Both the position numbers and the translations under genes were made by a program. From assembly GCA_021292105.1 (NCBI GenBank), contig CM037874.1, forward strand, positions 59,994,539 to 60,058,538: a stretch of 64,000 nt of DNA, in the 5' to 3' direction. The stretch is from Anadara kagoshimensis (Eukaryota > Mollusca > Bivalvia > Arcoida > Arcidae). The notes beneath the pieces were generated by a model. The model was not told the DNA's origin. It ran no database searches and was given only the letters and a program-made list of their open reading frames with translations. Of this stretch, positions 18,208-64,000 are shown one piece after another. Each line of letters begins with the position of its first letter. The stretch's first letter is position 1.

Positions 18208-21200
18208 ATTGTTATAATTTGAATAATGACTCCTGACTTAGGAAGAAGCACTTGTATTAACATGTATATGGGCAAACTGACAGATTTTAGGGAGGTCAAT
18301 TTGACAACTGTAGGACTGGATACATTGAATGTAAAGACAGGGGGAAATGATGTAGTGGTATGGTGTGAGGCTCATGATGGTGTGTACTAGGCTTGATCCT
18401 GGTGTAAATTAAACCTACCTGTTCTGCTATGGTGTGAGGCTCATGATGGTGTGTACTAGGGTTGGTCCTGGTGTAAATTAAACCTACCTGTTCTGGTATG
18501 GTGTGAGGCTCATGATGGTGTGTACTAGGGTTGGTCCTGGTGTAAATTAAACCTACCTGTTCTGCTATGGTGTGAGGCTCATGATGGTGTGTACTAGGGT
18601 TGGTCCTGGTGTAAATTAAACCTACCTGTTCTGGTAAGGTGTGAGGCTCATGATGGTGTGTACTAGGGTTGGTCCTGGTGTAAATTAAACCTACCTGTTC
18701 TGGTATGGTTTGAGGCTCATGATGGTGTGTACTAGGGTTGGTCCTGGTGTAAATTAAACCTACCTGTTCTGGTATGGTGTAAGGCTCATGATGGTGTGTA
18801 CTAGGGTTGATCCTGGTGTAAATTAAACCTACCTGTTCTGGTAAGGTGTGAGGCTCATGATGGTGTGTACTAGGGTTGATCCTAGTGTAAATTAAATCTA
18901 CCTGTTCTGGTAATATGTGAGGTTCATGATGGTGTGTACTAGGGTTGATCCTGGTGTAAATTAAACCTACCTGTTCTGGTATGGTGTGAGGCTCATGATG
19001 GTGTGTACTCGGGTTGATCCTGGTGTGAATTAAACCTACCTGTTCTGGTAAGGTGTGAGGCTCATGATGGTGTGTACAAGGGTTGATCCTGGTGTAAATT
19101 AAACCTACCTGTTCTGGTATGGTGTGAGGCTCATGATGGTGTGTACTAGGGTTGATCCTGGTGTAAATTAAACCTACCTGTTCTGGTATGGTGTGAGGCT
19201 CATGATGGTGTGTACTAGGGTTGATCCTGGTGTAAATTAAAACTACCTGTTCTGGTATGGTGTGAGGCTCATGATGGTGTGTACTAGGGTTGATCCTGGT
19301 GTAAATTAAACCTACCTGTTCTGGTAAGATGTGAGGCTCATGATGGTGTGTACTAGGGTTGATCCTGGTGTAAATTAAACCTACCTGTTCTGGTATGGTG
19401 TGAGGCTCATGATGGTGTGTACTAGGGTTGGTCCTGGTGTAAATTAAACCTACCTGTTCTGGTATGGTGTGAGGCTCATGATGGTGTGCACTAGGGTTGA
19501 TCCTGGTGTGAATTAAACCTACCTGTTCTGGTAAGGTGTGAGGCTCATGATGGTGTGTACTAGGTTGATCCTGGTGTAAATTAAACCTACCTGTTCTGGT
19601 ATGGTGTGAGGCTCATGATGGTGTGTACTAGGGTTGGTCCTGGTGTAAATTAAACCTACCTGTTCTGGTAAGATGTGAGGCTCATGATGGTGTGTACTAG
19701 GGTTGATCCTGGTGTAAATTAAACCTACCTGTTCTGGTATGGTGTGAGGCTCATGATGGTGTGTACTAGGGTTGGTCCTGGTGTAAATTAAACCTACCTG
19801 TTCTGGTATGGTGTGAGGCTCATGATGGTGTGTACTAGGTTGATCCTGGTGTAAATTAAACCTACCTGTTCTGGTATGGTGTGAGGCTCATGATGGTGTG
19901 TACTAGGGTTGGTCCTGGTGTAAATTAAACCTACCTGTTCTGGTATGGTGTGAGGCTCATGATGGTGTGCACTAGGGTTGATCCTGGTGTGAATTAAACC
20001 TACCTGTTCTGGTAAGGTGTGAGGCTCATGATGGTGTGTACTAGGTTGATCCTGGTGTAAATTAAACCTACCTGTTCTGGTATGGTGTGAGGCTCATGAT
20101 GGTGTGTACTAGGGTTGGTCCTGGTGTAAATTAAACCTACCTGTTCTGGTAAGATGTGAGGCTCATGATGGTGTGTACTAGGGTTGATCCTGGTGTAAAT
20201 TAAACCTACCTGTTCTGGTATGGTGTGAGGCTCATGATGGTGTGTACTAGGGTTGGTCCTGGTGTAAATTAAACCTACCTGTTCTGGTATGGTGTGAGGC
20301 TCATGATGGTGTGTACTAGGTTGATCCTGGTGTAAATTAAACCTACCTGTTCTGGTATGGTGTGAGGCTCATGATGGTGTGTACTAGGGTTGGTCCTGGT
20401 GTAAATTAAACCTACCTGTTCTGGTATGGTGTGTACTAGGGTTGATCCTGTTGTAAATTAAACCTACCTGTTCTGGTAAGGTGTGCGGCTCATGATGGTG
20501 TGTACTAGGGTTGGTCCTGGTGTAAATTAAACCTACCTGTTCTGGTATGGTGTGAGGCTCATGATGGTGTGTACTAGGATTGGTCCTGGTGTAAATTAAA
20601 CCTACCTGTTCTGGTAAGGTGTGCGGCTCATGATGGTGTGTACTAGGGTTGGTCCTGGTGTAAATTAAACCTACCTGTTCTGGTATGGTGTGAGGCTCAT
20701 GATGGTGTGTACTAGGGTTGATACTGGTGTAAATTAAACCTACCTGTTCTGGTAAGGTGTGAGACTCATGATGGTGTGTACTAGGGTTGGTCCTGGTGTA
20801 AATTAAACCTACCTGTTCTGGTAAGGTGTGTGGCTCATGATGGTGTGTACTAGGGTTGATCCTGGTGTAAATTAAACCTACCTGTTCTGGTATGGTGTGA
20901 GGCTCATGATGGTGTGTACTAGGATTGGTCCTGGTGTAAATTAAACCTACCTGTTCTGGTAAGGTGTGAGGCTCATGATGGTGTGTACTAGGGTTGGTCC
21001 TGGTGTAAATTAAACCTACCTGTTCTGGTATGGTGTGAGGCTCATGATGGTGTGTACTAGGGTTGATCGTGGTGTAAATTAAACCTACCTGTTCTGCTAT
21101 GGTGCGAGGCTCATGATGGTGTGTACTAGGGTTGATCCTGGTGTACATTAAACATACCTGTTCTGGTATGGTGTGAGGCTCATGATGGTGTGTACTAGGG

Positions 21201-24200
21201 TTGATCCTGGTGTGAATTAAACCTACCTGTTCTGGTATGGTGTGAGGCTCATATTGGTGTGTACTAGGGTTGATCCTGGTGTGAATTAAACCTACCTGTT
21301 CTGGTAAGGTGTGAGGCTCTCATGATGGTGTGTACTAGGGTTGATCCTGGTGTAATTTAAAACCTACCTGTTCTGGTATGGTGTGAGGCTCATGATGGTG
21401 TGTACTAGGGTTGGTCCTGGTGTAAATTAAACCTACCTGTTCTGGTAAGGTGTGAGGCTCATGATGGTGTGTACTAGGGTTGGTCCTGGTGTAAATTAAA
21501 CCTACCTGTTCTGGTATGGTGTGAGGCTCATGATGGTGTGTACTAGGGTTGGTCCTGGTGTAAATAAACCTACCTGTTCTGGTAAGGTGTGAGGCTCATG
21601 ATGGTGTGTACTAGGGTTGATCCTGGTGTAAATTAAACCTACCTGTTCTGGTAAGGTGTGAGGCTCATGATGGTGTGTACTAGGGTTGATACTGGTGTAA
21701 ATTAAACCTACCTGTTCTGGTATGGTGTGAGGCTCATGATGGTGTGTACTAGGGTTGGTCCTGGTGTAAATTAAACCTACCTGTTCTGGTATGGTGTGAG
21801 GCTCATGATGGTGTGTACTAGGGTTGATCCTGGTGTGAATTAAACCTACCTGTTCTGGTATGGTGTAAGGCTCATGATGGTGTGTACTAGGGTTGGTCCT
21901 GGTGTAAATTAAACCTACCTGTTCTGTTATGGTGTGAGGCTCATGATGGTGTGCACTAGGGTTGATCCTGGTGTGAATTAAACCTACCTGTTCTGGTATG
22001 GTGTGAGGCTCATGGTGGTGTGTACTAGGGTTGATCCTGGTGTAAATTAAACCTACCTGTTCTGGTATGGTGTGAGGCTCATGATGGTGTGTACTCTAGT
22101 TGATCCTGGAGTAGAAGGTGTACTGGGTTTTACGCTGTAACTGCTGTTAGATACATTACTGGAACCTGGGAATAACAAATACAAATATAGAGATGATTAT
22201 TATATACATGTAATGTTAAATTACATAAAATAAGAGACATGAGTTTTACCTGAGAAACTAGCTACTAGATTACAAGAGACAGAAACAGAGAAACAAGAAA
22301 AACCAGAGTGTGAGAGGAGACACAAAACCAAAGTACAAGAGGAGAGACCAGAGATCAAACCAGAGTATGAGGAGAGACAAAACCAAAGTACAAGAGGAGA
22401 GACCAGAGACAAAAACAGATACAAACCTTTATTATAAGGATTACTGACAGGTGGTTTTTGTTGCTGCTGCTGTATGGGTTTGTCTTGGTTATTATTCATC
22501 ACTCCTGCTAACATAAATAATTTGTTTGTAATTGTGTCAAAAATCATTTAATAACAGACACACCCGTTACATCACAAAATACATATACACTTATCACAAC
22601 ATCTCAATTTCTTCTATAAATTATGGTAGCTCTTTTGGTAGATAACCATGTACTATTTTTACTTTGAAAGGGTCATAATTCCTGAATTACCAATATGAGT
22701 ACTTATCCAGATTATTTTTAACACAGACTTGTCATTGTGTTTTCAGGGTTTGAATGTCTACAGAGACAATGGTTGTAAGTACAGAAATATGTTTATGGTT
22801 CACCGATGTAAAACAGGTTGAGATGTTACAGTTCTCTAATATTATTTGGAACAACAAGTTAAAAACCATTTTGTCAGTGTCAAAATTTATAAACCATTAA
22901 AATTACCCATGAAGCTTTGTCCTGTATTTCCTTCCTGTTTTGGCATCTGTGGGGGAAGCTGGGCAGAATCTGAATAATAAAATCAGAAAACAGATCAAAG
23001 TACTGAAGTACTGAAACCCCTAGACAGAGTCTGAATAACAAAATCAGAAAACCGATCAAAGTACTGAAGTACTGAAACCCCTAGACAGAATCTGAATAAT
23101 AAAATCAGAAAACAGATCAAAGTACTGAAGTACTGAAACCCCTAGACAGAATCTAAATAATAAAATCAGAAAACAGATCAAAGTACTGAAGTACTGAAAC
23201 CCCTAGACAGAATCTGAATAATAAAATCAGAAAACAGATCAAAGTACTGAAGTACTGAAACCCCTAGACAGAATCTGAATAATAAAATCAGAAAACAGAT
23301 CAAAGTACTGAAGTACTGAAACCCCTAGACAGAATCTGAATAATAAAATCAGAAAACAGATCAAAGTACTGAAGTACTGAAACCCCTAGACAGAGTCTGA
23401 ATAACAAAATCAGAAAACCGATCAAAGTACTGAAGTACTGAAACCCCTAGACAGAGTCTGAATAATAAAATCAGAAAAAAAAAAAAAAAAAAACATTATA
23501 AAATTTTTTTTAACATAAACGTGTTAAATGTTTTGGATCTGTAGTCGCGAGAGGCAATGTGATCTGTGGTGGTCAGAGGAAATGTGACATGTAGTGCACG
23601 TGGTCAGAGGCAATGTGATCTGTAGTGGTCAGAGGCAATGTGATCTGTAGTGGTCAGAGGAAATGTGATATGTGGTGGTCAGAGGAAATGTGACATGTAG
23701 TGGTAAGAGGCAATGTGATCTGTGGTGGTCAGAGGAAATGTGATCTGTAGTGGTGAGAGGCAATGTGATCTGTAGTGGTGAGAGACAATGTGATCAGTAG
23801 GCTAGTACTTTAATGCACTCCGAATAATGGTCTCACACAATTACAAATTATCATCCTTAAACTCTTTTGGTAGGCAGACAGGGCAATTTATATAACCCCA
23901 ATCCTTCAAACTGTTTGTCATTATATATAATTAATACTTACTATGTGAGGGTTGTTCTCCCGAACTTTTGTACTGTTGTGGATTACCAATTCGCTGACCC
24001 ACGTCTTCTCCCCGAGATAAAACAGCTACATCTAATAAAATCATAACTCTCCTGAAATTAACAAATAATAAATATTAATTATAAACTCTCGACTATTTGA
24101 GGAGACATGTGTGCATGGTCAGAGTATCAAAGGGTCACAAGTCCAAGTACCAGATTGGCTGCATGCTTTCTATCTGAGCAAGACATTTAATTCACATTTC

Positions 24201-27200
24201 TCCAGTCCATTCTGCTGCAGAGTGAATGGGTACAGGCAGATATACGCTGTTTGTAAACCTTGTTTTAGGGAAGTCACTACAGGCTATAGAAACCAGAATA
24301 ACAAACTAATATTGAACTTGACTCATATGTATATGTTCTCACCTGTCACCCTGGATTGTGTTACAATTCTATATGTATATGTTCTCACCTGTCACCCTGG
24401 ATTGTGTTACAATTCTATATGTATATGTTCTCACCTGTCACCCTGGATTGTGTTTCAGTTCTATATGTATATGTTCTCACCTGTCACCCTGGATTGTGTT
24501 ACAATTCTATATGTATATGTTCTCACCTGTCACCCTGGATTGTGTTACAATTCTATATGTATATGTTCTCACCTGTCACCCTGAATTGTGTTACAATTCT
24601 ATATGTATATGTTCTCACCTGTCACCCTGGGTTGTGTTACAATTCTATATGTATATGGTCTCACCTTTCACCCTGGATTGTGTTACAATTCTATATGTAT
24701 ATGTTCTCACCTGTTACCCTGGATTGTGTTACAATTCTATATGTATATGTTCTCACCTGTCACCCTGGATTGTGTTACAATTCTATATGTATATGTTCTC
24801 ACCTGTCACCCTGGATTGTGTTACAATTCTATATGTATATGTTCTCACCTGTCACCCTGGATTGTGTTACAATTCTATATGTATATGTTCTCACCTGTCA
24901 CCCTGGATTGTGTTACAATTCTATATGTATATGTTCTCACCTGTCACCCTGGATTGTGTTTCAGTTCTATATGTATATGTTCTCACCTGTCACCCTGGAT
25001 TGTGTTACAGTTCTATATGTATATGTTCTCACCTGTCACCCTGGATTATGTTACAGTTCTATATGTATATGTTCTCACCTGTCACCTGGATTGTGTTACA
25101 GTTCTATATGTATATGTTCTCACCTGTCACCCTGGATTGTGTTACAGTTCTATATGTATATGTTCTCACCTGTCACCCTGGATTGTGTTACAGTTCTATA
25201 TGTATATGTTCTCACCTGTCACCCTGGATTGTGTTACAGTTCTATATGTATATGTTCTCACCTGTCACCCTGGATTATGTTACAATTCTATATGTATATG
25301 TTCTCGCCTGTCACCCTGGATTGTGTTACAATTCTATATGTATATGTTCTCACCTGTCACCCTGGATTGTGTTACAATTCTATATGTATATGTTCTCACC
25401 TGTCACCCTGGATTGTGTTACAGTTCTATATGTATATGTTCTCACCTGTCACCCTGTATTGTGTTACCGTTCTATATGTATATGTTCTCACCTGTCACCC
25501 TGGGTTGTGTTACAATTCTATATGTATATGTTCTCACCTGTCACCTTGGATTATGTTACAGTTCTATATGTATATATTCTCACCTGTCGGCCTGGATTGT
25601 GTTTCAGTTCTATATGTATATGTTCTCACCTGTCACCCTGGATTGTGATACAATTCTATATGTATATGTTCTCACCTGTCACCCTGGATTGTGTTACAAT
25701 TCTATATGTATATGTTCTCGCCTGTCACCCTGGATTGTGTTACAATTCTATATGTATATATGTTCTCACCTGTCACCCTGGATTGTGTTACAGTTCTATA
25801 TGTATATGTTCTCACCTGTCACCCTGGATTGTGTTACAGTTCTATATGTATATGTTCTCACCTGTCACCCTGGATTGTGTTACAATTCTATATGTATATG
25901 TTCTCACCTGTCACCCCGGATTGTGTTACAGTTCTATATGTATATGTTCTCACCTGTCACCCTGGATTGTGTTACAGTTCTATATGTATATGTTCTCACC
26001 TGTCACCCTGGATTGTGTTACAGTTCTATATGTATATGTTCTCACCTGTCACCCTGGATTGTGTTACCGTTCTATATGTATATGTTCTCACCTGTCACCC
26101 TGGATTGTGTTACAATTCTATATGTATATGTTCTCACCTGTCACCCCGGATTGTGTTACAGTTCTATATGTATATGTTCTCACCTGTCACCCTGGATTGT
26201 GTTACAATTCTATATGTACATGTTCTCGCCTGTCACCCTGGATTGTGTTACAATTCTATATGTATATGTTCTCACCTGTCACCCTGAATTGTGTTACAAT
26301 TCTATATGTATATGTTCTCACCTGTCACCCTGGATTGTGTTACAATTCTATATGTACATGTTCTCGCCTGTCACCCTGGATTGTGTTACAGTTCTATATG
26401 TATATGTTCTCACCTGTCACCCTGGATTGTGTTACAGTTCTATATGTATATGTTCTCACCTGTCACCCTGGATTGTGTTACAGTTCTATATGTATATGTT
26501 CTCACCTGTCACCCTGGATTGTGTTACAATTCTATATGTACATGTTCTCGCCTGTCACCCTGGATTGTGTTACAGTTCTATATGTATATGTTCTCGCCTG
26601 TCACCCTGGATTGTGTTACAATTCTATATGTATAAGTTCTCACCTGTCACCCTGGATTGTGTTACAGTTCTATATGTATATGTTCTCACCTGTCACCCTG
26701 GATTATGTTACAGTTCTATATGTATATGTTCTCACCTGTCACCCTGGATTGTGTTACAGTTCTATATGTATATGTTCTCACCTGTCACCCTGGATTGTGT
26801 TACAGTTCTATATGTATATGTTCTCACCTGTCACCCTGGATTATGTTACAATTCTATATGTATATGTTCTCGCCTGTCACCCTGGATTGTGTTACAATTC
26901 TATATGTATATGTTCTCACCTGTCACCCTGGATTGTGTTACAATTCTATATGTATATGTTCTCACCTGTCACCCTGGATTGTGTTACAGTTCTATATGTA
27001 TATGTTCTCACCTGTCACCCTGGATTGTGTTACAGTTCTATATGTATATGTTCTCACCTGTCACCCTGGATTCTGTTACAGTTCTATATGTATATGTTCT
27101 CACCTGTCACCCTGGATTGTGTTACAATTCTATATGTATATGTTCTCACCTGTCACCCTGGATTGTGTTACAGTTCTATATGTATATGTTCTCACCTGTC

Positions 27201-30200
27201 ACCCTGGATTGTGTTACAGAGATATTTATCAACTTGGATGATTGACAGGTTGTCCATTTCACCTGTTTCCATCAAGGAGTTAAGCTGTGTTGCCAACATG
27301 GCATCTACAAAAAGTGACATATTTAATTATACTTTGTGTATCAATACATCAAGTTACAACTTCAGGGATTAAGACCAACAGGGACCCAGTACCCAGGACT
27401 CTTCAAAATAAGTCTGGAACCCTAAATTTTACATATTTAAACTATTTATTACCATTACAACTTCTTTTCTTAATTAAAATGCAACCCCCTTTCCAAGTAG
27501 TTAAGCTTTATCCCATAACTTGACTCATTAGAGATATCCTTATATAATAGGTAACAAATGTAAGACTTAACCTTGTGACCCTGGCCTTGTGACCTACACA
27601 ACTAAATTTGGTATGTAGCACATTGCCTCATGTTAGTTTACATTTGTACTAAGTTTGATGAAAATCCACTCATAGATATGACAGCTCTGGAATACAAACA
27701 ATATTGGGAGAGATTGAAGAACTCCTATATATCCCCTTAAACCCAGTTTACAAAGAGTACCAGATATAATAATTTTGATATTATTAAATATTAGATTGTG
27801 TAAGCATAGACAAATATATAGAAATCTTCATGTATACCTTTAAAGCAATACCTGTTTGACAACAACTTTAATCATAAAATGTCCATCAGATGACATTTGT
27901 CAATTGTGGTGCATGTCCCTAAACCCTAGATTAAACGTAATAATATTAGCAAAAGCATCTTTTCAAACCTATATTTAGAATTGCATTATCCTTAGAACTG
28001 AGGTAAATTTTTTTATATGGGCAAATATACCAAGAGACTGTAAAACTGGTACAAGTATGGTGAAGGCAATACAGAGAATATGTATAAATGTATGTATAGA
28101 CTTACGTGAATAACTGAGTTGTCCATCAGAGAGTAACAATCTGTATCTATCAGCACTAGAACCTTGAGCTGAGATCTTCTTAGAACTCTGAAATGTAAAG
28201 TAACAATCTGTATCTATCAGCACTAGAACCTTGAGCTGAGATCTTCTTAGAACTCTGAAATGTAAAGTAACAATCTGTATCTATCAGCACTAGAACCTTG
28301 AGCCGAGATCTTCTTAGAACTCTGAAATGTAAAGTAACAATCTGTATCTATCAGCACTAGAACCTTGAGCCGAGATCTTCTTAGAACTCTGAAATGTAAA
28401 GCAATAATCTGTATCTATCAGCACTAGAACCTTGAGCCGAGATCTTCTTAGAACTCTGAAATGTAAAGTAACAATCTGTATCTATCAGCACTAGAACCTT
28501 GAGCCGAGATCTTCTTAGAACTCTGAAATGTAAAGTAACAATCTGTATCTATCAGCACTAGAACCTTGAGCTGAGATCTTAGAACTCTGAAATGTAAAGT
28601 AAAAATCTGTATCTATCAGTACTAGAACCTTGAGCTGAGATCTTCTTAGAACTCTGAAATGTAATGTAAAATCTGTATCTATCAGCACTAGAACCTTGAG
28701 CAGAGATCTTCTTAGAACTCTGAAATGTAAAGTAATAATCTGTATCTATCAGCACTAGAACCTTGAGCCGAGATCTTCTTAGAACTCTGAAATGTAAAGT
28801 AACAATCTGTATCTATCAGCACTAGAACCTTGAGCTGAGATCTTCTTAGAACTCTGAAATGTAAAGTAACAATCTGTATCTATCAGCACTAGAACCTTGA
28901 GCTGAGATCTTAGAACTCTGAAATGTAAAGTAAAAATCTGTATCTATCAGTACTAGAACCTTGAGCTGAGATCTTCTTAGAACTCTGAAATGTAAAGTAA
29001 CAATCTGTATCTATCAGCACTAGAACCTTGAGCTGAGATCTACTTAGAACTCTGAAATGTAAAGTAACAATCTGTATCTATCAGCACTAGAACCTTGAGC
29101 TGAGATCTACTTAGAACTCTGAAATGTAAAGTAACAATCTGTATCTATCAGCACTAGAACCTTGAGCCGAGATCTTCTTAGAACTCTGAAATGTAAAGTA
29201 CAGTAGAACTTCGATAACTCGAAGTGCATGGGACTTCGATGATGACTTCGAGTTATCGGGGTGTTCGAGTTTTCGAAGTTGAAGAATGAGGTCTCAATGT
29301 AGACTTTCAATTTCATGCGAGAAATGTTGCATGGTATTAAACTGTTTACCGATACACTAGTGTCATATGTATTACATAAATACATGTAATAATAAACGAA
29401 ATATAATCAATTTAAAAATGATGTTTTATAAGGACTCCTGGCGACACAAAATATGTACATGTATTACCAAAACATAATCATTAAGCATTCAAAAAACTGA
29501 ATCAGATACAAATATTCATGTACATTGTATTTAATAATCATAATTATCACGATTATAATACATATGCAAGACAAGAGGCACATTTTATAGAAATTGTAAC
29601 ATTACTGTAGTGTGCGTACCACGTCTCTGTTACTGTAAACCGCTTTATATTAGCGCATACTTATTTTAGCGATTGATGACTGGTAAACATATTAGCGCAG
29701 TTTAATTTTAGCGTAATCAATTCCAGCCTGAACTGTTTAATTCGCCTAAAACCCACAACTTTTAACCAAAGAAATAAAATAAAATTTGAGAAGGGGATGC
29801 CAGGTTACAAGAAAATAATAAAAATAACTATGTAATGTTTCACTTTTACTGAGAGAAAATCTCCGTAACTGACCCAGGAAGTCACTAGACAGACAGATGT
29901 CTGCAGGAAGCTTTCATCATAATTTGACCCTCTCGTCGAATAGATATATTTAAATCAATAATAACCTATTTTGTTTTTATTCATTTAAATACCAACTTTA
30001 AAAATACAAATGTTTCGACACATTGTCGATGTATCCACGATAACAGCCGCTTAGATCATTATAGAGGTCAATAAGTAGGATTTATATTATGTTGCCGATA
30101 TCACAGAAAAAATAAACAATTTTCGCATAACGGGTCTAATTTGTTGATATAATTGTTAATATTTTAATGATTGAAGCCAACTACTGCTAAATTAAAATTA

Positions 30201-42569: not shown

Positions 42570-42627
<58 letters not shown>

Positions 42628-42720: not shown

Positions 42721-42770
42721 ACATATAAGTAATACATACATATATAACAGATGACTAATTAGTAAAAAAA

Positions 42771-42888
42771 ATGATCATATATCAGTGTATATTATCAACT
42801 TATTACTACTATGGAGTTTATAAGCTTAAATGATCATATATCAGTGTATATTATCAACTTATTACTACTACGGAGTTTATAAGCTTGA
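42771..42888. repeat. 59-bp direct duplication (two copies)
   Basis: Two adjacent copies of atgatcatatatcagtgtat ... ggagtttataagctt differ at one or two sites. A recent tandem duplication in the RPA1-NF2 intergenic region. Confidence 0.85.
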
Positions 42889-44572
42889 ATGTTTGAAGAT
42901 TTGGTATCAAAGGATGCAGAATTGAATGTACTCCATCATGATATACTTGAATTTTTAATATCAGTAAAAATAAATACTAGTTACTCGTCTTGGATGTTAC
43001 GTTTATATGAAAAATATTTGTACTATATTCGGTACAAGAAAATGTTCGGCGTTTTGCGGAAGTAATGATCCATTTGTAAATTCCAAAAGTAATAAGTTGC
43101 TAATATCTGAATAGATAATAATTTTTCCAAAAGTGTCCAGCAGCTTCTCCACAAGTAACTGACTACTAGTTGCTAACTTTTTTCTACAAGCAAAAACGGT
43201 TACCAGTAGGTAACTTTACCTATCTGTATAAGTTTGTGCGTTATCAGATTTTATAGAGGACTATCGTGAATACCCATATGCTATCAAATCCCTCGAACGT
43301 TTTGGCCGGCAGTTAAACCCTCCTGAATGTTACCCGCCATAGAATAATGAAGATTTTGATGCGGACATTGTTATGCCTTGAAAAGAAGTGGGTGCGCATC
43401 TAGGGATCTTAAAAATACCTGATAACTTTTTTTCTACAGAATTGGATTCTATGTGACAGCCCAAGTAGAAATCTCATCTACGAGACGAACTGAAAATGAC
43501 AGTCTGAGGAATCAAGACAGTAAAACTACGTCATGATGACGTCGCGCCAAGTTGTGCACTGCACCTGTTCACTCGGAATCTTACATTATTTCTTATGAAT
43601 CTTCAGTGAAAAACAATACATTACACATGCATGCGTGTTCTTTCGCATGTTGCCGTTTTAAAAAAAAAATGTTATTTATGTTTGTTGACGACGTCATTAC
43701 TCACCCGCGTACATGATAAACGTAATTTATGTATAGCTAAAAGATTTAAAAAATGACTGACCTTTGGCCTTTGTATTTTTATGTTTAAAAATAAATTATG
43801 ACAAACTCCGAGTTAACATTAAATTTCAGATATAGTGCCTTTGTTATCATATTTAAATTAAAAAATTAATTTGTTCCATAGATGCCATCATGGGACATGA
43901 TTTCTACTTGGAGCTGTCACCTATAATCAGCTGATAATAATTCTAATTAAAGCACCATTGACGTCAGGCGTTAAAGTTCAGAAAGTATGGATGGAAAAGA
44001 CAGTATTATTCAATTCAAAGTGCATAATTTAAATTATATTTGGATATAGATATAATTAACGACACGGTGCACTTAACGCATGTGTATTATACACGTATAC
44101 TTACAGATGGAATTATTACCCTCTGTATCCATGACACCAAGTTGTTGTTCATTAAATTTTAAATTCCACAATGAACTCGAATAGATTATTGTAGAACAGG
44201 ATAATTCAATCATATTTATTGGGCATGTTTGAAGTTAAAATAAATTGAATTGACGCCGAAAAAAACTCCAAGTGGTTAGGACACCAATGACCATATATCA
44301 GTTACCTTTAGCATCTATAATTGTTTTTCGAAGCCGCTGTAAAATACCTTTAACATCTCGATCTTTTGAACGTTTGAAATCAGAAAGATTATGAGATCGT
44401 CATTAAAAAGGAATCTTGACCCAGAACTTGTCAAAACTTCTGATGGGGTTTTGCCAATCAGATCGAAATCAAGTTAAAATGTAGCCAGCTACGAAGATGT
44501 AATAGACGTGAGATAAATATAAACATTTACAGTTTTAGACTGTACAAATTTTATCGATAAACAGAATCCAAA
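42889..44572. promoter_or_regulatory. RPA1-NF2 intergenic region, candidate shared regulatory DNA
   Basis: The two start codons are divergent and 2.27 kb apart. The region holds TGACGTCG directly followed by CGCGCCAA (43,537-43,550; CRE-like then E2F-like) and a full CRE TGACGTCA at 43,959-43,966. E2F control of RPA genes is known in animals. Which motif serves which gene, or whether either acts, cannot be told from sequence. No third gene is visible. Confidence 0.4.
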
Positions 44573-44680
44573 ATGCCCTTTGTAAACATAAAGAAGGCTG
44601 GCCAAGCCACGGGGAGTACGAAGAGTTTCTCAGTGAGAGTTACTACGATGGATGCGGAACTTGAGTTTGCAAACATTGAT
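44573..44680 (+). CDS. NF2: NF2 (merlin) exon 1, start of FERM domain
   Basis: It encodes [20 protein letters not shown] then [16 protein letters not shown]. VRxxTMDAExEF begins the FERM F1 lobe in merlin and ERM proteins, and the extended N-terminus before it fits merlin, not ezrin/moesin (which start MPK.INVRV). 36 codons, donor gtaagt. Merlin is a membrane-cortex scaffold that feeds the Hippo pathway. The gene continues at 56,301 after an 11.6-kb intron carrying a gypsy element. Confidence 0.93.
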
Positions 44681-53600: not shown

Positions 53601-56600
53601 TGAATTATGGATATGCAAAAATAGCCAGTATTTTACATATCCAAAAATCGATTTATGAATATCCAAAATTAAATTTTGGAAATTCCAAAATACTGAGTTC
53701 TCCCCATATATCAATCCCGAAGTGAATACTGTTGGTACATTGAATTAATAAAAAAATATTCATCCTCGCAAATAAAAATCATATTTTTACAATAGGGAAT
53801 ATAAATGCGTTTTTCATCGACTTTTGTTAAACATGTAAACTTGTGTATATTTTAAGATTTTTTTCTTTCCTGCAGTGCCCACGCGGTACGCGCGTCGCGT
53901 CTTAGAATCCAACATGGCTGCTACAGAAAGTAATGGAAAGAACGAACATTTGGCTAATATGTAGTAATATTAAACGCAATGTGATGTTTTGAAAGTGAAG
54001 ATATCGACTGTAACCGTATTTTGATAGAGTTAAGACAATCACAACGATGTCTGTCTTTAATGCAACTGTTGACTTAGCTTTTCTGCGTACTTGACAATTT
54101 CCCGCGTAAATAGTAAAACAGTCCCGCACTGTATATTTGGGGAGAAATCATTTCGCACTCTCGATTTATGGATATCCATAAATCAATTTTTGCATATGTA
54201 AAAATACTGACTATTTTTGCATATGTAAAAATACTGACTATTTTTGCATATGCAAAAATCGAATAATGGATATCCAAAATTCGATTTATGGATATCCATA
54301 AATCAATTTTTAGATATCCAAAAATAGTCAGCATTTTTACATATGCAAAATTCGATTTATGGATATCCATAAATCGAATTTTGGATATCCATAAATCGAT
54401 TTTTGCATATGCAAAATTATTTTTAGATATCTAAAAATATTTTTACATATGTTAAATTCGATTTATGGATATCCATAAATGAATTATGGATATCCATAAA
54501 TGAATTATGCATATGTAAAAATAGTGAATAAATATAGAAACGGCGCCTCATATGTTTTAACCCCCAATGAAAATATGTCAATATAGTGGTTGAACTCCAC
54601 CTGTGAAAAAGGACAATATTGTGTTTGAATCCCCTTTGAGAAATATGACAGTATCAATCATGTTTTAACCCCCCTATTGAAAACAATGCTATAACTCTGT
54701 CAAAAATAGTGTCTTATAGGTGATGAAATGTTATTGCTTTTCTAAAATATGACAGTATCAACTATGCCCCACACTCAGTGAAAACTTTTTTTGTCAAAAA
54801 CCTTGTCTAATACTAGTAGGTGATGAAAGGTTACTGCTGCACCATCAGATAACATTATATATCACATAACCCTCCTGTTTATTGATGGAATAAAACGGTG
54901 TAATATTTTTCATATTACACAGGTACCCATGTCATATCACTTGATTGTGACGTAATCAGTTATCACGCTTCTTATTTACGTAGAGGTCGTGCCTAATGAC
55001 GTCATATGAAAACTGTGTCAGTCTGTTGTTTATTTTAGACTTTGAAGACTTTCCGATTCTTGAAAAATAATTTTGATGCATTCGGAAAATAATTATGATT
55101 TAAACTTACATACTGATTATGTCTTTTTTTCTAGGTGATTAATTTACTTTTACTATAACTAAATAGAACTATATTCTTACTTGCGCAGTTAATTTGGAGG
55201 TGATTTGTCTGACCCAGATAGAAATCGTCTGTTTCTATTTGGCATCAAATAATATGTACATGTCATTATGCCTCGGTATTTTGAGTTATGTGATATATAG
55301 AATCTTAGACTCGTGAGGGTTTAATATGAAATTTATTAAACTCGTTCAATAATTAAATATGCCACTCGCCAAGGCTCGTGGCATATTTAATTATTAAACT
55401 CGTTTAATAAATTTCATATTAAACCCCACTCGTCTAAGATCCTCTATGTAATCAATTTGTCATCGCAATGTAATGATTATATTTGTACAATTGGCAGCAT
55501 TCTTTTTTTAATTTTTTTTAAATGTCTCTCAAGTTATTTGTCTACCATTCAAGATTAAGTGCTGATTACATTTTTTAACATTCACAACACAATTCAAAAT
55601 CCTTACTATCAGTAGTTTTTGTTTTCAACTAATTTGACAGCAAGGTTACCAGTGGTGATCATATAATGAAAGTCCCAAGGCTTAAATACAATCTTTAACA
55701 ACTTGGTAAAATCGGACAGAAAAATTAATAAATAAATAAAACCAGAAAAGACAAATGTGCTGTTTTACTTATTCAAATGTTGTCTTATTATTTGACTTTG
55801 ACTACCAGTACTTTGCTTATTTGGTAAACCAAAAAGTCTACTTCAAAGCTATTTACTGACAAGATATATAAAACCTTTCTGCTAGTCAGATTGTTTGCAT
55901 TGTTCTATAACTGATTTACCTGTAGCCTTTACATGCCCCTATCTCTTTGCACATGAATAGCATCCCAAAACTTCTCTTGTTATACAGTTAGTTTCTTATA
56001 ACTCTTTATTAAATGTTGCCAGATGGAATTTTTACTGGGTGGGTTAAAACACATGTTTGCAACCTTTTTTCTATCTGATGTTTATGCTGCTTTCTACTAG
56101 ACTAAATAAATGCAAAATGTCACAATTTTGCCCATGGAAGATGAGGTCAGGTCTGGTCTAGTCCTGTCTGTTTAATTCTCCAATTACTTCAGTTTTTGCT
56201 GCATATATAATCTAAATTTGCCTACAAATGGCTTTTTGATTCTTTAAGATATCTTTTGACTGTTTTCCTATACCATGTAGTAATTTGATTTATATTTTAG
56301 CACAAAGCAGCTGGTAAAGATCTGTTTGAGTTGGTTGTAGAACAATAGGATTAAGAGAAACTATTTATTTTGGTCTTCAGTTTATTGATTCTAAAGGCTA
56401 CATATCCTGGCTCAAGTTTGACAAAAAGGTAATAAAATGATGATAACATAAAAGTTATACATTGTATATATACCATAGATAAAGTACAGTAATTTCAGCA
56501 AAATGACCCTGACAAACAGGGATCTATTTTTCACTAACTCTGCCACTACTTTTTGGTTATAATTTGATAAAAAGAATATATGATAATTTTGTTCAGAATG

Positions 56601-57146
56601 CCAATATCATTGACTTGAGGTGTCACAAAGACTCTTTTTCTGTAAGCTCAAATATTCCCCTCACCTGTCCTCTTCATCCCTGGTGGGACATAAGGCCATA
56701 AGCTCGAATATTAGTATTGTTCTATTTATATTATTCAATTAAGTAGATTACAATTTAAATAAATGCATTATACATTTTACTGTTTTTGATGGACAACACT
56801 AAATCACAAGTCCTTCTTTTACTGTCAGTTTTTATATCTATCATTCTAGTGTCTTAGATAAAATTATGTAATTTTTCTCTCTATTTCATTTATTAATTTT
56901 TGTTACTTTATTTATTATTATTTATATTTTTTATTTCAGGTTTTAGACCAGGATGTACCAAAGGAATCCCCCGTACCATTTCTATTTTTAGCCAAATTTT
57001 ATCCAGAGGATTTATCAGAAGAACTTATACAGGAAATAACACAACATTTATTCTTCCTACAAGTTAAACAGTCCATTCTAAATATGGATATATATTGTCC
57101 ACCAGAAGCCTCAGTACTCCTAGCATCATATGCTGTCCAAGCTAAG
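44573..57146 (+). CDS. NF2: Merlin (NF2), partial gene: exons 1-3, runs off the window
   Basis: Three exons give the FERM F1 lobe and the start of F2, about 148 residues of an expected 600 or so. The segment [52 protein letters not shown] is far closer to human merlin ([31 protein letters not shown]) than to ezrin (DITQKLFFLQVK, IYCPPETAVLLGSYAVQAK). Exon 2 lacks one T (see its entry). Human merlin splits exon 3 after LFFLQ; here those two exons are one. Intron 3 begins with the 62-bp array and continues past the edge, so FERM F2/F3, the coiled coil and the C-terminal domain lie outside. Confidence 0.92.
44826..45890 (-). repeat. 3' LTR of the gypsy element
   Basis: About 1,065 bp, paired with the copy at 51,710-52,775. 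It contains repeated cacgttgctgtgc/cgttgccgtgc stretches that create cysteine-rich open frames on the plus strand; these are not genes. Confidence 0.95.
46030..48800 (-). mobile_element. pol region of the gypsy element (RT, RNase H, integrase)
   Basis: Fossil region by domain, in order on the minus strand: RT with [15 protein letters not shown] and YLDDVIVIG; RNase H with [16 protein letters not shown]; integrase zinc finger [10 protein letters not shown]...CMACNKRN; integrase core with [17 protein letters not shown] and [18 protein letters not shown]; a GPY/F-type module [14 protein letters not shown] near the end. All motifs are those of Ty3/gypsy elements. Confidence 0.95.
48800..51650 (-). 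mobile_element. gag and protease region of the gypsy element
   Basis: Fossil region. The gag part has a glutamine/lysine-rich helical segment ([15 protein letters not shown]) and two CCHC zinc knuckles, [14 protein letters not shown] and [14 protein letters not shown], the usual nucleocapsid signature. Protease follows with [13 protein letters not shown]. The order gag-protease agrees with Ty3/gypsy. Confidence 0.9.
51710..52775 (-). repeat. 5' LTR of the gypsy element
   Basis: About 1,066 bp, nearly identical to the 3' LTR. In element sense it is upstream of gag, and the primer-binding-like site follows its end at 51,709 and below. Confidence 0.95.
53072..53364 (+). mobile_element. tRNA-derived SINE with V/Meta-like core, well preserved
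   Basis: The head has an A-box-like GTGGCCTAGTGG and a B-box GGTTCGATCCC at normal tRNA spacing. The core reads tgtccttgagcaagacactt, then ttccagttcactcagctg. A 7-bp repeat atatgac flanks both ends (53,065-53,071; 53,365-53,371). V-type and MetaSINE cores of this kind are known in bivalves. It is not a tRNA gene. Confidence 0.8.
53460..54550. mobile_element. TA-flanked TIR element built of short palindromes, 1.09 kb
   Basis: The left end tgaggcgccgtttcaatatt and the right end (reverse complement tgaggcgccgtttctatatt) are inverted repeats of about 40 bases, flanked by TA (53,458; 54,551). Both arms, about 300 and 400 bp, consist almost wholly of small perfect palindromes such as TTTATGGATATCCATAAA, TTTTGCATATGCAAAA and TTTTACATATGTAAAA, centred on GATATC or CATATG. 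The middle (about 53,740-54,150) is ordinary sequence with no recognised gene. Confidence 0.8.
54551..54730. repeat. Degenerate tandem repeat split by the palindromic element
   Basis: Loose units of about 35 bp (tgttttaaccccaatgaaaa, tatgacaatattgtgtttga) occur on both sides of the 53,460-54,550 element (left part 53,365-53,457). The element therefore landed in a pre-existing array. Confidence 0.6.
55295..55450. mobile_element. Foldback hairpin element, about 65-bp arms
   Basis: The left arm taatatgaaatttattaaac, aattaaatatgccactcg is complemented by cgtggcatatttaattatta, gtttaataaatttcatatta after a short loop. Outer parts atcttagac / gtctaagat also pair. A hairpin MITE in NF2 intron 1. Confidence 0.75.
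55451..56300 (+). other. 3' part of NF2 intron 1, nothing recognised
   Basis: AT-rich intron sequence ending in tttatattttag before exon 2. No repeat family or conserved coding segment seen. Confidence 0.5.
56301..56428 (+). CDS. NF2: NF2 exon 2, FERM F1 lobe, with a one-base T loss
   Basis: It encodes [12 protein letters not shown], then after the break [17 protein letters not shown] and [13 protein letters not shown]. Human merlin reads [25 protein letters not shown]. The genome has GTTGTAGAACA where GTTTGTAGAACA (V C R T) is expected, so one T of a T-run is missing. 128 nt against 129 needed for phase. Flanking residues are fully conserved, so a read error is likelier than a pseudogene. 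Acceptor atattttag, donor gtaata. Confidence 0.9.
56429..56939 (+). other. NF2 intron 2, repeat-free
   Basis: About 510 bp of AT-rich intron with canonical ends (gtaata ... tttatttcag). No repeat recognised. Confidence 0.6.
56940..57146 (+). CDS. NF2: NF2 exon 3, end of FERM F1 and start of F2
   Basis: It encodes [50 protein letters not shown] and [19 protein letters not shown], 69 codons in phase 0. The last 19 residues are identical to human merlin. Donor gtataa follows AAG. The last 57 or so bases with the donor found the 62-bp array that fills the start of intron 3. Confidence 0.95.
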
Positions 57147-60100
57147 GTATAATATATTGTCCACCAGAAGCCTCAGTACTCCTAGCATCATATGCTGTCC
57201 AAACTAAGGTATAATATATTGTCCACCAGAAGCCTCAGTACTCTTAGCATCATATGCTGTCCAAGCTAAGGTATAATATATTGTCCACCAGAAGCCTCAG
57301 TACTCTTAGCATCATATGCTGTCCAAGCTAAGGTATAATATATTGTCCACCAGAAGCCTCAGTACTCCTAACATCATATGCTGTCCAAACTAAGGTATAA
57401 TATATTGTCCACCAGAAGCCTCAGTACTCCTAGCATCATATGCTGTCCAAGCTAAGGTATAATATATTGTCCACCAGAAGCCTCAGTACTCTTAGCATCA
57501 TATGCTGTCCAAGCTAAGGTATAATATATTGTCCACCAGAAGCCTCAGTACTCCTAACATCATATGCTGTCCAAGCTAAGGTATAATATATTGTCCACCA
57601 GAAGCCTCAGTACTCCTAACATCGTATGCTGTCCAAGCTAAGGTATAATATATTGTCCACCAGAAGCCTCAGTACTCCTAGCATCATATGCTGTCCAAGC
57701 TAAGGTATAATATATTGTCCACCAGAAGCCTCAGTACTCCTAACATCATATGCTGTCCAAGCTAAGGTATAATATATTGTCCACCAGAAGCCTCAGTACT
57801 CTTAGCATCATATGCTGTCCAAGCTAAGGTATAATATATTGTCCACCAGAAGCCTCAGTACTCCTAGCATCATATGCTGTCCAAGCTAAGGTATAATATA
57901 TTGTCCACCAGAAGCCTCAGTACTCCTAGCATCATATGCTGTCCAAGCTAAGGTATAATATATTGTCTGCTAGAAGCCTCAGTACTCCTAGCATAATATG
58001 CTGTCCAAGCTAAGGTATAATATATTGTCCACCAGAAGCCTCAGTACTCCTAACATCATATGCTGTCCAAGCTAAGGTATAATATATTGTCTGCTAGAAG
58101 CCTCAGTACTCTTAGCATCATATGCTGTCCAAGCTAAGGTATAATATATTGTCCACCAGAAGCCTCAGTACTCCTAACATCATATGCTGTCCAAGCTAAG
58201 GTATAATATATTGTCTGCTAGAAGCCTCAGTACTCTTAGCATCATATGCTGTCCAAGCTAAGGTATAATATATTGTCACCAAAAGCCTCAGTACTCCTAG
58301 CATTATATCTGTCCAAGCTAAGGTATAATATATTGTCCACCAAAAGCCTCAGTACTCCTAGCATATTGCTGTCCAAGCTAAGGTATAATATATTGTCCAC
58401 CAGAAGCCTCAGTACTCCTAGCATAATATGCTGTCCAAGCTAAGGTATAATATATTGTCTACCAGAAGCCTCAGTACTCCTAGCATAATATGCTGTCCAA
58501 GCTAAGGTATAATATATTGTCCACCAGAAGCCTCAGTACTCCTAGCATCATATGCTGTCCAAGCTAAGGTATAATATATTGTCCACCAGAAGCCTCAGTA
58601 CTCCTAGCATCATATGCTGTCCAAGCTAAGGTATAATATATTGTCCACCAGAAGCCTCAGTACTCCTACATCATATGCTGTCCAAGCTAAGGTATAATAT
58701 ATTGTCCTACCAGAAGCCTCAGTACTCTAGCATCATATGCTGTCCAAGCTAAGGTATAATATATTGTCTGCAGAAGCCTCAGTACTCTAGCATCATATGC
58801 TGTCCAAGCTAAGGTATAATATATTGTCCACCAGAAGCCTCAGTACTCCTAGCATCATATGCTGTCCAAGCTAAGGTATAATATATTGTCCACCAGAAGC
58901 CTCAGTACTCTTAGCATCATATGCTGTCCAAGCTAAGGTATAATATATTGTCCACCAGAAGCCTCAGTACTCTAGCATCATATGCTGTCCAAGCTAAGGT
59001 ATAATATATTGTCCACCAGAAGCCTCAGTACTCCTAGCATCATATGCTGTCCAAGCTAAGGTATAATATATTGTCGAGAAGCCTCAGTACTCCTAAGCAT
59101 CATATGCTGTCCAAGCTAAGGTATAATATATTGTCTGCTAGAAGCCTCAGTACTCCTAACATAATATGCTGTCCAAGCTAAGGTATAATATATTGTCTGC
59201 TAGAAGCCTCAGTACTCCTAGCATAATATGCTGTCCAAGCTAAGGTATTATAAGTTATACAGGGCTTTGGCAGGTTACACGGCCCCATGTACCCCGTCAA
59301 AGATTTATGTACCCTGAGCCGCAGGCGAAGGGTACATTCATCTTTGACGGGGTACATGGGGCCGTGTAACCTGCCAAAGCCCTGTATAACGTTTTTGTCA
59401 CCCTTCAAAGCGTAACCAGTTGGATCTTTTTAACTTTCATTTCGTATTTTGTGTGACTTGCGTACGTTGTCGCCATCTTTGTTTACGGTAACTAGACGTC
59501 AGAGATGTACGAGTTACTTCCGTTTTACCGCTAAACGTCGCGTGCGTTCATGTACCCCGGCAGATTTCCGAACATAGTTCCATGTACCCCGGCAAGTTAA
59601 CCAATCAGCATGCGAGAAATTTCTTTGAAGGGTGACAAAATATATTGTCTGCTAGAAGCCTCAGTACTCCTAACATCATATGCTGTCCAAGCTAAGGTAT
59701 AATATATTGTCTGCTAGAAGCCTCAGTACTCCTAGCATCATATGCTGTCCAAGCTAAGGTATAATATATTGTCCACCAGAAGCCCCAGTACTCCTAGCAT
59801 CATATGCTGTCCAAGCTAAGATATAATATATTGTCCACCAGAAGCCTCAGTACTCCTAGCATCATATGTTGTCCAAGCTAAGGTATGCTATATTGTCCAC
59901 CAGAAGCCTCAGTACTCCTAGCATCATATGCTGTCCAAGCTAAGGTATAATATATTGTCCACCAGAAGCCTCAGTACTCCTAGCATCATATGCTGTCCAA
60001 GCTAAGGTATGCTATATTGTCCACCAGAAGCCTCAGTACTCCTACATCATATGCTGTCCAAGCTAAGGTATAATATATTGTCCACCAGAAGCCTCAGTAC

Positions 60101-63100
60101 TCCTAGCATCATATGTTGTCCAAGCTAAGGTATGCTATATTGTCCACCAGAAGCCTCAGTACTCCTAGCATCATATGCTGTCCAAGCTAAGGTATAATAT
60201 ATTGTCCACCAGAAGCCTCAGTACTCCTAGCATCATATGCTGTCCAAGCTAAGGTATGCTATATTGTCCACCAGAAGCCTCAGTACTCCTAACATCATAT
60301 GCTGTCCAAGCTAAGGTATAATATATTGTCCACCAGAAGCCTCAGTACTCTTAGCATCATATGCTGTCCAAGCTAAGGTATAATATATTGTCCACCAGAA
60401 GCCTCAGTACTCCTAACATCATATGCTGTCCAAGCTAAGGTATAATATATTGTCCACCAGAAGCCTCAGTACTCCTAACATCATATGCTGTCCAAGCTAA
60501 GGTATAATATATTGTCTGCTAGAAGCCTCAGTACTCTTAGCATCATATGCTGTCCAAGCTAAGGTATAATATATTGTCCACCAGAAGCCTCAGTACTCCT
60601 AACATCATATGCTGTCCAAGCTAAGGTATAATATATTGTCCACAGAAGCCTCAGTACTCCTAACATCATATGCTGTCCAAGCTAAGGTATAATATATTGT
60701 CTGCTAGAAGCCTCAGTACTCTTAGCATCATATGCTGTCCAAGCTAAGGTATAATATATTGTCTGCTAGAAGCCTCAGTACTCCTAGCATCATATGCTGT
60801 CCAAGCTAAGGTATAATATATTGTCCAGAAGCCTCAGTACTCCTAACATCATATGCTGTCCAAGCTAAGGTATAATATATTGTCTGCTAGAAGCCTCAGT
60901 ACTCCTAGCATAATATGCTGTCCAAGCTAAGGTATAATATATTGTCTACCAGAAGCCTCAGTACTCCTAGCATCATATGCTGTCCAAGCTAAGGTATAAT
61001 ATATTGTCCACCAAAAGCCTCAGTACTCCTAGCATAATATTCTGTCGAAGCTAAGGTATAATATATTGTCCACCAAAAGCCTCAGTACTCCTAGCATAAT
61101 ATGCTGTCCAAGCTAAGGTATAATATATTGTCCACCAGAAGCCTCAGTACTCCTAGCATCATATGCTGTCCAAGCTAAGGTATAATATATTGTCCACCAG
61201 AAGCCTCAGTACTCTTAGCATCATATGCTGTCCAAGCTAAGGTATAATATATTGTCCACCAGAAGCCTCAGTACTCCTAACATCATATGCTGTACAAGCT
61301 AAGGTATAATATATTGTCCACCAGAAGCCTCAGTACTCCTAACATCATATGCTGTCCAAGCTAAGGTATAATATATTGTCTGCTAGAAGCCTCAGTACTT
61401 AGCATCATATGCTGTCCAAGCTAAGGTATAATATATTGTCCACCAAAAGCCTCAGTACTCCTAGCATAATATGCTGTCCAAGCTAAGGTATAATATATTG
61501 TCTACCAGAAGCCTCAGTACTCCTAGCATCATATGCTGTCCAAGCTAAGGTATAATATATTGTCTACCAGAAGCCTCAGTACTCCTAGCATCATATGCTG
61601 TCCAAGCTAAGGTATAATATATTGTCCACCAGAAGCCTCAGTACTCCTAACATCATATGCTGTCCAAGCTAAGGTATAATATATTGTCCACCAGAAGCCT
61701 CAGTACTCCTAGCATCATATGCTGTCCAAGCTAAGGTATAATATATTGTCCACCAGAAGCCTCAGTACTCCTAACATCATATGCTGTCCAAGCTAAGGTA
61801 TAATATATTGTCCACCAGAAGCCTCAGTACTCTAGCATCATATGCTGTCCAAGCTAAGGTATAATATATTGTCCACCAGAAGCCTCAGTACTCCTAGCAT
61901 CATATGCTGTCCAAGCTAAGGTATAATTATTGTCTGCTAGAAGCCTCAGTACTCCTAGCATAATAAGCTGTCCAAGCTAAGGTATAATATATTGTCCACC
62001 AGAAGCCTCAGTACTCCTAACATCATATGCTGTCCAAGCTAAGGTATAATATATTGTCTGCTAGAAGCCTCAGTACTCTTAGCATCATATGCTGTCCAAG
62101 CTAAGGTATAATATATTGTCCACCAGAAGCCTCAGTACTCCTAACATCATATGCTGTCCAAGCTAAGGTATAATATATTGTCCACCAGAAGCCTCAGTAC
62201 TCCTAACATCATATGCTGTCCAAGCTAAGGTATAATATATTGTCTGCTAGAAGCCTCAGTACTCTTAGCATCATATGCTGTCCAAGCTAAGGTATAATAT
62301 ATTGTCTGCTAGAAGCCTCAGTACTCCTAGCATCATATGCTGTCCAAGCTAAGGTATAATATATTGTCCACCAGAAGCCTCAGTACTCCTAGCATCATAT
62401 GCTGTCCAAGCTAAGGTATAATATATTGTCCACCAGAAGCCTCAGTACTCCTAACATCATATGCTGTCCAAGCTAAGGTATAATATATTGTCTACCAGAA
62501 GCCTCAGTACTCCTAACATCATATGCTGTCCAAGCTAAGGTATAATATATTGTCTGCTAGAAGCCTCAGTACTCCTAGCATAATATGCTGTCCAAGCTAA
62601 GGTATAATATATTGTCCACCAGAAGCCTCAGTACTCCTAACATCATATGCTGTCCAAGCTAAGGTATAATATATTGTCTACCAGAAGCCTCAGTACTCCT
62701 AACATCATATGCTGTCCAAGCTAAGGTATAATATATTGTCTGCTAGAAGCCTCAGTACTCCTAGCATAATATGCTGTCCAAGCTAAGGTATAATATATTG
62801 TCTACCAGAAGCCTCAGTACTCCTAGCATCATATGCTGTCCAAGCTAAGGTATAATATATTGTCTACCAGAAGCCTCAGTACTCCTAGCATCATATGCTG
62901 TCCAAGCTAAGGTATAATATATTGTCCACCAGAAGCCTCAGTACTCTTAGCATCATATGCTGTCCAAGCTAAGGTATAATATATTGTCTGCTAGAAGCCT
63001 CAATACTCCTAACATCATATGCTGTCCAAGCTAAGGTATAATATATTGTCTGCTAGAAGCCTCAGTACTCCTAACATCATATGCTGTCCAAGCTAAGGTA

Positions 63101-64000
63101 TAATATATTGTCCACCAGAAGCCTCAGTACTCCTAGCATCATATGCTGTCCAAGCTAAGGTATATATATTGTCCACCAGAAGCCTCAGTACTCTTAGCAT
63201 CATATGCTGTCCAAGCTAAGGTATAATATATTGTCTGCTAGAAGCCTCAGTACTCCTAACATCATATGCTGTCCAAGCTAAGGTATAATATATTGTCTGC
63301 TAGAAGCCTCAGTACTCCTAGCATCATATACTGTCCAAACTAAGGTATAATATATTGTCCACCAGAAGCCTCAGTACTCCTAGCATCATATGCTGTCCAA
63401 GCTAAGGTATAATATATTGTCCACCAGAAGCCTCAGTACTCCTAGCATCATATGCTGTCCAAGCTAAGGTATAATATATTGTCCACCAGAAGCCTCAGTA
63501 CTCCTAACATCATATGCTGTCCAAGCTAAGGTATAATATATTGTCTGCTAGAAGCCTCAGTACTCCTAGCATATATGCTGTCCAAGCTAAGGTATAATAT
63601 ATTGTCCACCAGAAGCCTCAGTACTCCTAGCATCATATGCTGTCCAAGCTAAGGTATAATATATTGTCCACCAGAAGCCTCAGTACTCCTAGCATCATAT
63701 GCTGTCCAAGCTAAGGTATAATATATTGTCCACCAGAAGCCTCAGTACTCCTAGCATCATATGCTGTCCAAGCTAAGGTATAATATATTGTCTGCTAGAA
63801 GCCTCAGTACTCCTAACATCATATGCTGTCCAAGCTAAGGTATAATATATTGTCCACCAGAAGCCTCAGTACTCCTAGCATCATATGCTGTCCAAGCTAA
63901 GGTATAATATATGTCCACCAAAAGCCTCAGTACTCCTAGCAATATGCTGTCCAAGCTAAGGTATAATATATTGTCTACCAGAAGCCTCAGTACTCCTAGC
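57147..64000 (+). repeat. Tandem array of the NF2 exon 3 donor junction, 62-bp unit, over 100 copies
   Basis: Each unit reads the donor and intron start gtata, then atatattgtccaccagaagc, ctcagtactcctagcatcat, atgctgtccaagctaag, a copy of the end of exon 3 (codons for [18 protein letters not shown]). Every unit is thus an exon end plus a 5' splice site. About 104 copies fit between the exon and the window edge, where the array is still running. Two main subtypes (gtccaccag and gtctgctag) and lesser ones (gtctaccag; actcct/actctt; ctagc/ctaac) are mixed along the array, and some runs of subtypes recur. In the exon frame the first bases after the native donor give TAA, so use of later copies would truncate merlin. 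Confidence 0.97.
59245..59640. mobile_element. Foldback insertion inside the NF2 array
   Basis: A long hairpin (59,253-59,391) pairs ttatacagggctttggcagg, ttacacggccccatgtaccc with its complement around a short centre. A second inverted pair, ttttgtcacccttcaaag (59,394) and ctttgaagggtgacaaaa (59,623-59,640), bounds the rest. The motif atgtaccccggca occurs twice more in that rest. The exact ends and duplication cannot be fixed because the target (gtataatatatt) is itself AT-rich. No coding capacity. Confidence 0.75.

Follow-up and report, generated by a model that had tools for sequence, protein, structure and literature searches.

Tandem arrays whose repeat unit spans an exon-intron boundary are known from amphioxus under the name of mirages, the original paper on which reportedly appeared in Nucleic Acids Research in 2002. 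Mirage minisatellites occur in amphioxus Adh3 and in the globins BflGb6 and BflGb9 (PMC3087553), to which a troponin C mirage and imperfect repeats in PGBD5 have been added (PMC3902484). According to the accessible parts of these two papers, the units measure 10-160 bp and the interior of an array is homogenised with the edges excluded (PMC3087553, PMC3902484), and the authors consider that RT-PCR and Adh3 data suggest regular splicing to be undisturbed (PMC3087553). Copies are few among the copy numbers given in the same excerpts, with 6 and 3 in two haplotypes of BflGb6 and 2-7 in PGBD5.

Here we describe five arrays of this kind in a 64,000-nucleotide stretch of DNA from the bivalve Anadara kagoshimensis, which was analysed as a whole and is referred to as the window. 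As in mirages, the tandem unit spans the exon-intron boundary in all five arrays, both 5' and 3' boundaries are affected (three donors and two acceptors), and many, albeit not all, copies keep their AG or GT. As regards the homogenised interior and excluded edges of mirages, neighbour similarity is significant only in the intron-side part of one array, the free edge of which is 19% diverged, and in one further array, and exon edges are undiverged in four of five arrays under strict alignment and in two of five under permissive alignment. Unlike the amphioxus cases, as far as these are covered by the accessible text, four of the arrays are located in one gene and the fifth in the neighbouring gene, and they hold from 8 to more than 111 copies and extend over up to more than 6.9 kb. 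A preceding sequence-only reading of the window knew of no named class for such arrays; the available parts of the amphioxus papers describe mirages of matching anatomy (PMC3087553, PMC3902484), and hence the class is known and what is new here is size and number. No mollusc arrays of the junction-spanning kind were found in the partial library of literature that was searched, and mirage-type arrays are probably new in this phylum.

Several other systems share individual features with the locus, as judged from the portions of the respective reports at hand. A duplication across an intron-exon boundary, as here, underlies intron gain in the potato RdRp gene, in which a new intron arose, whereas the present locus offers only introns that contain arrays (PMC4974935). 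In human segmental duplications, minisatellite expansion at exon edges is likewise described, with a report of 27 intron modifications, however with units of about 30 bp and a mean of 4 repeats that vary between paralogs, unlike here (PMC2812944). The dual-specific AGGT sites in the tandem repeats of UBC and VCX3A have a form in common with the three donor arrays, yet their use is reported, while use of the next copy here would meet a stop codon (PMC10809524). Earthworm metallothionein genes carry an intronic tandem repeat of 10-19 kb that resembles the long arrays here; it is compared as an intronic repeat, junction spanning being the feature of the present arrays (PMC12783039). The Pacific oyster, also a bivalve, possesses dispersed short tandem arrays borne by Helentrons, i.e. 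on mobile elements, in contrast to the unit here, which derives from the adjoining exon (PMC7492417). Introner-like mobile elements, for which one related element is distributed across many introns, are not seen within the window, where the five units differ from each other and each matches its own exon edge.

Gene models and anatomy of the junction-spanning arrays

The window contains two genes arranged head to head. RPA1 was modelled on the minus strand with 18 coding exons running from 42304 down to 8393, exons 2-10 of which match the 70 kDa subunit of RPA in the PDB (E 3e-79), and a gene of NF2/ERM type, hereafter the FERM gene, is represented on the plus strand by its first 3 modelled exons. 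Since radixin (7e-44) and moesin (5e-42) score slightly above merlin (1e-41), the name NF2 used by the sequence-only reading is plausible rather than settled against ERM. Exon ends of both models were set by hand; AG or GT is present at all 39 coding junctions, the reading frame is open across RPA1 exons 1-12 with no stop at the joins, and FERM exon 3 continues the frame of the second part of exon 2. We note two frame breaks, one at 14339-14772 between RPA1 exons 12 and 13 (the frame is open within exons 1-12 and again within exons 13-18) and one at 56301-56428 inside FERM exon 2, possibly representing assembly base errors, real frameshifts or, for RPA1 only, a wrongly set exon end. A search for relatives of a 123-residue stretch of RPA1 in two non-eukaryote collections, genome_contigs and viral_contigs, returned 113 and 3 pattern matches, none of which was confirmed.

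Arrays were called with TRF (62 rows) and kept if they scored 300 or higher and had 3 or more copies; joining of the two insert-split halves of the RPA1 exon-3 array then yielded 13 arrays in the window. Outside these 13 are repeats internal to an LTR element, AT-rich arrays at 53496-54523 and two-copy repeats at 12466 and 42769. Five of the 13 arrays hold exactly one of the 39 coding junctions each, namely the donors of RPA1 exon 8, RPA1 exon 4 and FERM exon 3 and the acceptors of RPA1 exons 6 and 3, and the remaining eight hold none. TRF and the gene models hence agree with the earlier claim of three donors and two acceptors repeated together with their exon edges. With units of 46-69 bp the five arrays sum to 19,522 bp, or 30.5% of the window (insert excluded), close to the 19 kb and 30% first estimated. 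Each of the four arrays that combine a unit of 46 bp or longer with over 20 copies is anchored at a junction, as had been asserted, though the arrays without such an anchor number eight under the above thresholds and not six; the exon-6 array spans its junction, but with 8.4 copies and six exonic bases only.

The three donor arrays each repeat the 3' edge of an exon, with one unit end lying inside the exon and the other in the intron, at 5, 12 and 22 bases from the splice site. On the minus strand, the exon-8 array (18356-22113; 69-bp unit, 54.5 copies) comprises the edge of RPA1 exon 8 (22057-22165, with the true donor at its low end) and 12 intron bases, 57 of the 69 bases in the exon-bearing copy being exonic, and its donor CAG/GTAGGT (splice site at the slash) is present as 51 exact 9-mers including the true site. 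The exon-4 array (24325-27219, minus strand; 46-bp unit, 62.9 copies) adjoins RPA1 exon 4 (27196-27304, minus strand), from which 24 of 46 bases in the exon-bearing copy originate, with 55 exact 9-mers of the donor CAG/GTGAGA including the true one. On the plus strand, the FERM array (57090-64000; 62-bp unit, at least 111.5 copies) starts at the NF2-type exon 3 (56940-57146), which accounts for 57 of the 62 bases in the exon-bearing copy, and leaves the window; its donor AAG/GTATAA is found as 98 exact 9-mers, again counting the true site. The unit patterns of the exon-8 and FERM arrays gave 0 matches each in viral contigs.

Both acceptor arrays are located on the minus strand. The exon-6 array (22964-23478; 61-bp unit, 8.4 copies) takes only 6 of 61 bases from RPA1 exon 6 (22907-22969), and about 34 bp of its unit are without counterpart in the adjacent flanks. 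The RPA1 exon-3 array has a 67-bp unit that covers the acceptor and the 5' edge of exon 3 (28106-28187), with 56 of 67 bases exonic in the exon-bearing copy, and consists of an exon-side part (28132-29200, 16.0 copies) and an intron-side part (32074-36447, 65.3 copies), the free end of the latter being a degenerate copy that is 18-19% diverged. Every junction array runs unbroken from inside the exon, across the splice site and into the intron; further out, the RPA1 exon-3 array alone is cut, by a transposon-like insert (29201-32074, no strand assigned) that may be Pogo/Tigger-like. The inverted ends of the insert, 25 nt including the flanking TA (29199-32076), are 100% complementary. Further inverted ends, 80% complementary to each other, lie at 29631-29655 and 31572-31596 and may delimit an element nested within the insert.

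Junction overlap, chance and possible seeding

Random placement served as the null model, in which each array was collapsed to one unit and 13 units, or 10 within genes, were distributed over the window. With arrays collapsed, the window has a GC of 0.326, a low value that is unlike amphioxus. Twelve versions were run, eight with and without the LTR element at two overlap margins, in which exon 7 was one base off, and four that were GC-matched and used the corrected gene model. Between 0.50 and 0.94 junction-spanning arrays are expected and five are observed, in a window chosen post hoc, with P(≥5) ranging from 4e-5 to 1.3e-3 over the 12 nulls, higher with GC matching and uncorrected for the choice of window. 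As the window was picked for looking odd, these P values overstate the surprise. For units of at least 46 bp the chance of overlap is 7-20% per array, and for all four of the long arrays (unit ≥46 bp, over 20 copies) to lie across a junction, the product of chances is 7e-5. Compared to the eight non-spanning arrays, the five spanning ones are longer (Mann-Whitney P 0.03) and higher in copy number (P 0.045), the difference in unit length being not significant (P 0.22).

The earlier statement that random overlap with five splice sites is unlikely is thereby supported within the window. Chance in combination with window selection nevertheless retains some weight, for a minisatellite-rich genome may somewhere have several arrays that overlap exon edges; 13 arrays and 39 coding junctions meet in this one window, the overlap chance of a single array is appreciable, and the test is post hoc and confined to the same window. 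Set against this are the excess over all placement models and the consideration that selection against exon repeats should reduce overlap, not increase it. Taken together, we judge coincidence to be possible, though the less probable account of the excess.

Alternatively, exon-intron junctions may actively seed minisatellites, via R-loops, splicing-linked breaks or reinserted circular exon-intron products. The excess over the placement models and the greater length and copy number of the junction arrays would be in line with such seeding, but the unit ends, located away from the splice sites, are not, and neither is the base composition. R-loops need a G-rich transcript strand, and the transcript-strand GC skew is -0.35 in the exon-8 array and -0.23 in the FERM array, as compared to +0.08 to +0.11 in the other three. 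R-loop seeding, put forward in the sequence-only reading, is consequently rejected as a general cause, the skew having the wrong sign at two arrays. As to hairpins, the folding of every unit dimer stays within 2 standard deviations of 100 shuffled versions; GGG or CCC, the sole criterion looked at for G-quadruplexes, is present in three of the five units.

The other junctions tested also speak against active seeding, in that no clear degenerate exon-edge copies were detected there. For each of 19 introns, up to 60 bases of the exon at either end served as probes against that intron (n=38, the FERM exon 3 donor, with its intron incomplete in the window, being excluded), with shuffles scored on up to 6000 of the first intron bases. 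Among the best 22 of 38 probes by z, three matches are strong and all three represent known arrays; next are the acceptors of exon 6 (z 4.0) and exon 4 (z 3.6), whose scores exceed the top value among 60 shuffles by 2 points each and which we attribute to chance. Insertion of circular intron-exon products, also suggested earlier, is disfavoured because the ends of such products are expected at splice sites, while the units here end inside exon and intron, and because every array joins its own exon without a break and in register. Overall, active seeding appears improbable.

Copied splice sites and splice-site choice

The copied splice sites are largely intact, with GT in 54/54 copies of the exon-8 array, 56/63 of the exon-4 array and 106/111 of the FERM array, and AG in 9/9 copies of the exon-6 array and 68/81 of the RPA1 exon-3 array. 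Such preservation would be compatible with the copied sites being maintained as decoys through which splicing or intron retention is regulated, as the sequence-only reading had also considered. However, in all five arrays the variability of the splice-site positions is not significantly different from that of the other unit positions (P 0.34-0.39). The copied sites thus show no extra conservation, and there is no sign of retention for function. In the exon-4 array, 44 of 46 dinucleotide positions are at least as intact as the GT, and in the RPA1 exon-3 array 63 of 67 are at least as intact as the AG, placing both sites among the least intact dinucleotides of their units, with 7/63 exon-4 donors and 13/81 exon-3 acceptors not intact; at most this indicates a weak tendency toward splice-site loss in these two arrays. 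Selection for decoys is accordingly rejected for lack of extra conservation, and we regard it as very unlikely. We note that the non-intact exon-4 donors are, by eye, mostly GC, a minor natural donor.

Splicing to the next copy, considering the nearest copy only, would introduce a stop codon at each of the five junctions. In the three donor arrays the stop occurs no more than 2 codons past the true exon end, and for the acceptors it is reached within 4 (exon 6) and 25 (exon 3) codons of the new start. Normal splicing must therefore pick the exon-bearing site among up to 111 or more rivals, and presumably does so. Dozens of near-identical splice sites in series constitute a natural experiment on site choice by the spliceosome, and the arrays also bear on intron growth and on the origin of introns by boundary duplication.

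Copy divergence and proposed origin

Mean pairwise identity between units ranges from 0.91 to 0.98 across the arrays. The number of distinct sequences among full units is 34 of 54 in the exon-8 array, 3 of 8 in the exon-6 array, 21 of 62 in the exon-4 array, 8 of 16 and 15 of 65 in the exon-side and intron-side parts of the RPA1 exon-3 array, respectively, and 46 of 111 in the FERM array. Adjacent copies resemble each other more closely than after shuffling of their order in the intron-side exon-3 part and the FERM array (0/300 shuffles each), and not significantly so in the exon-8 array, the exon-4 array and the exon-side exon-3 part (239/300, 24/300 and 95/300). Assembly artefacts, for which the two one-base frame breaks in or beside coding exons might speak, as base errors are possible, are hardly credible as an explanation of the arrays in light of this neighbour similarity, and are rejected on the variation between units inside every array and on the insert with intact inverted ends that is lodged in one of them.

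Under strict alignment, the copy at the exon edge matches the majority sequence of its array without differences in four of five arrays, that of the exon-8 array differing at about 6% of positions, and all 18 free edges (11 arrays) differ from their majority; exon and free edges are separated in their ratio to interior divergence (P 0.015). These edge tests omit 4139-5308 in the strict and 4139-5308 together with 17825-18183 in the permissive version, and the far end of the FERM array is outside the window. Permissive alignment weakens the contrast, with exon-edge divergence of 0.058 (exon 8), 0.033 (exon 6), 0 (exon 4), 0 (RPA1 exon 3) and 0.226 (FERM), i.e. two of five exon edges without differences, and the exon-8 copy differs both ways; the FERM value is high probably because the alignment extended into unique exon sequence. 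The plain reading is that the exon represents the founder copy, held unchanged by selection. Copies of the exon-4 array end in register with the intron continuing beyond, as expected for a simple tandem duplication whose seam is 4 bases long. The distal end of the exon-8 array is out of phase with such a duplication, and this phase and the approximately 34 bp in the exon-6 unit that lack a counterpart in the flanks mean that extra steps are needed.

Based on these analyses we propose, with a probability of roughly 0.8, that the five arrays are independent mirage-type minisatellites, each generated by local tandem duplication across a junction and neutral expansion, and tolerated owing to the true site on the exon. 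A short segment across the exon-intron junction would initially be duplicated locally in tandem, and the array would then expand into the intron via replication slippage or unequal exchange, either of which fits, in agreement with the slippage suggested in the original reading. The outermost copy would correspond to the real exon edge, held by selection on protein and splice site, with the remaining copies as intronic passengers that carry unselected duplicate splice sites, and the gene would survive because splicing uses the exon-bearing site. Ordinary tandem-repeat growth is the most likely mechanism. As for the junction excess, we favour that a duplication at an exon edge would be harmless when the splice site is copied along, and that the exon copy, constant under selection, would persist as an undecayed founder. 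What is directly seen is the anatomy, the exon register, neighbour similarity in two arrays, the lack of special conservation of copied sites and the next-copy stops, whereas the duplication mechanism, correct splicing and the cause of the junction over-representation are inferred. That exon-intron junctions are a preferred genome-wide birthplace of large minisatellites in the Anadara kagoshimensis lineage, with arrays of splice sites in tens to hundreds of copies forming a normal and major part of introns and the selected exon edge serving as a lasting founder copy, is a wider proposition that we consider doubtful. Were the junction excess to hold genome-wide, it would contribute to intron length and bias the sites at which minisatellites originate; otherwise, the arrays would be a conspicuous local cluster of a type already described.

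Intron 1 of the FERM gene also harbours an LTR retrotransposon of Ty3 type (44826-52380, ends approximate) with reverse transcriptase, RNase H, integrase and aspartyl protease domains, the terminal repeats of which are near-identical by eye and start at about 44826 and 51712. A tRNA-like match at 53079-53142 (30.3 bits at a threshold of 29, with no call by ARAGORN) is perhaps a tRNA-derived short interspersed element. The two AT-rich arrays at 53496-54523, likewise in FERM intron 1, have palindrome-like 22-bp units and are perhaps the two ends of a single mobile element.
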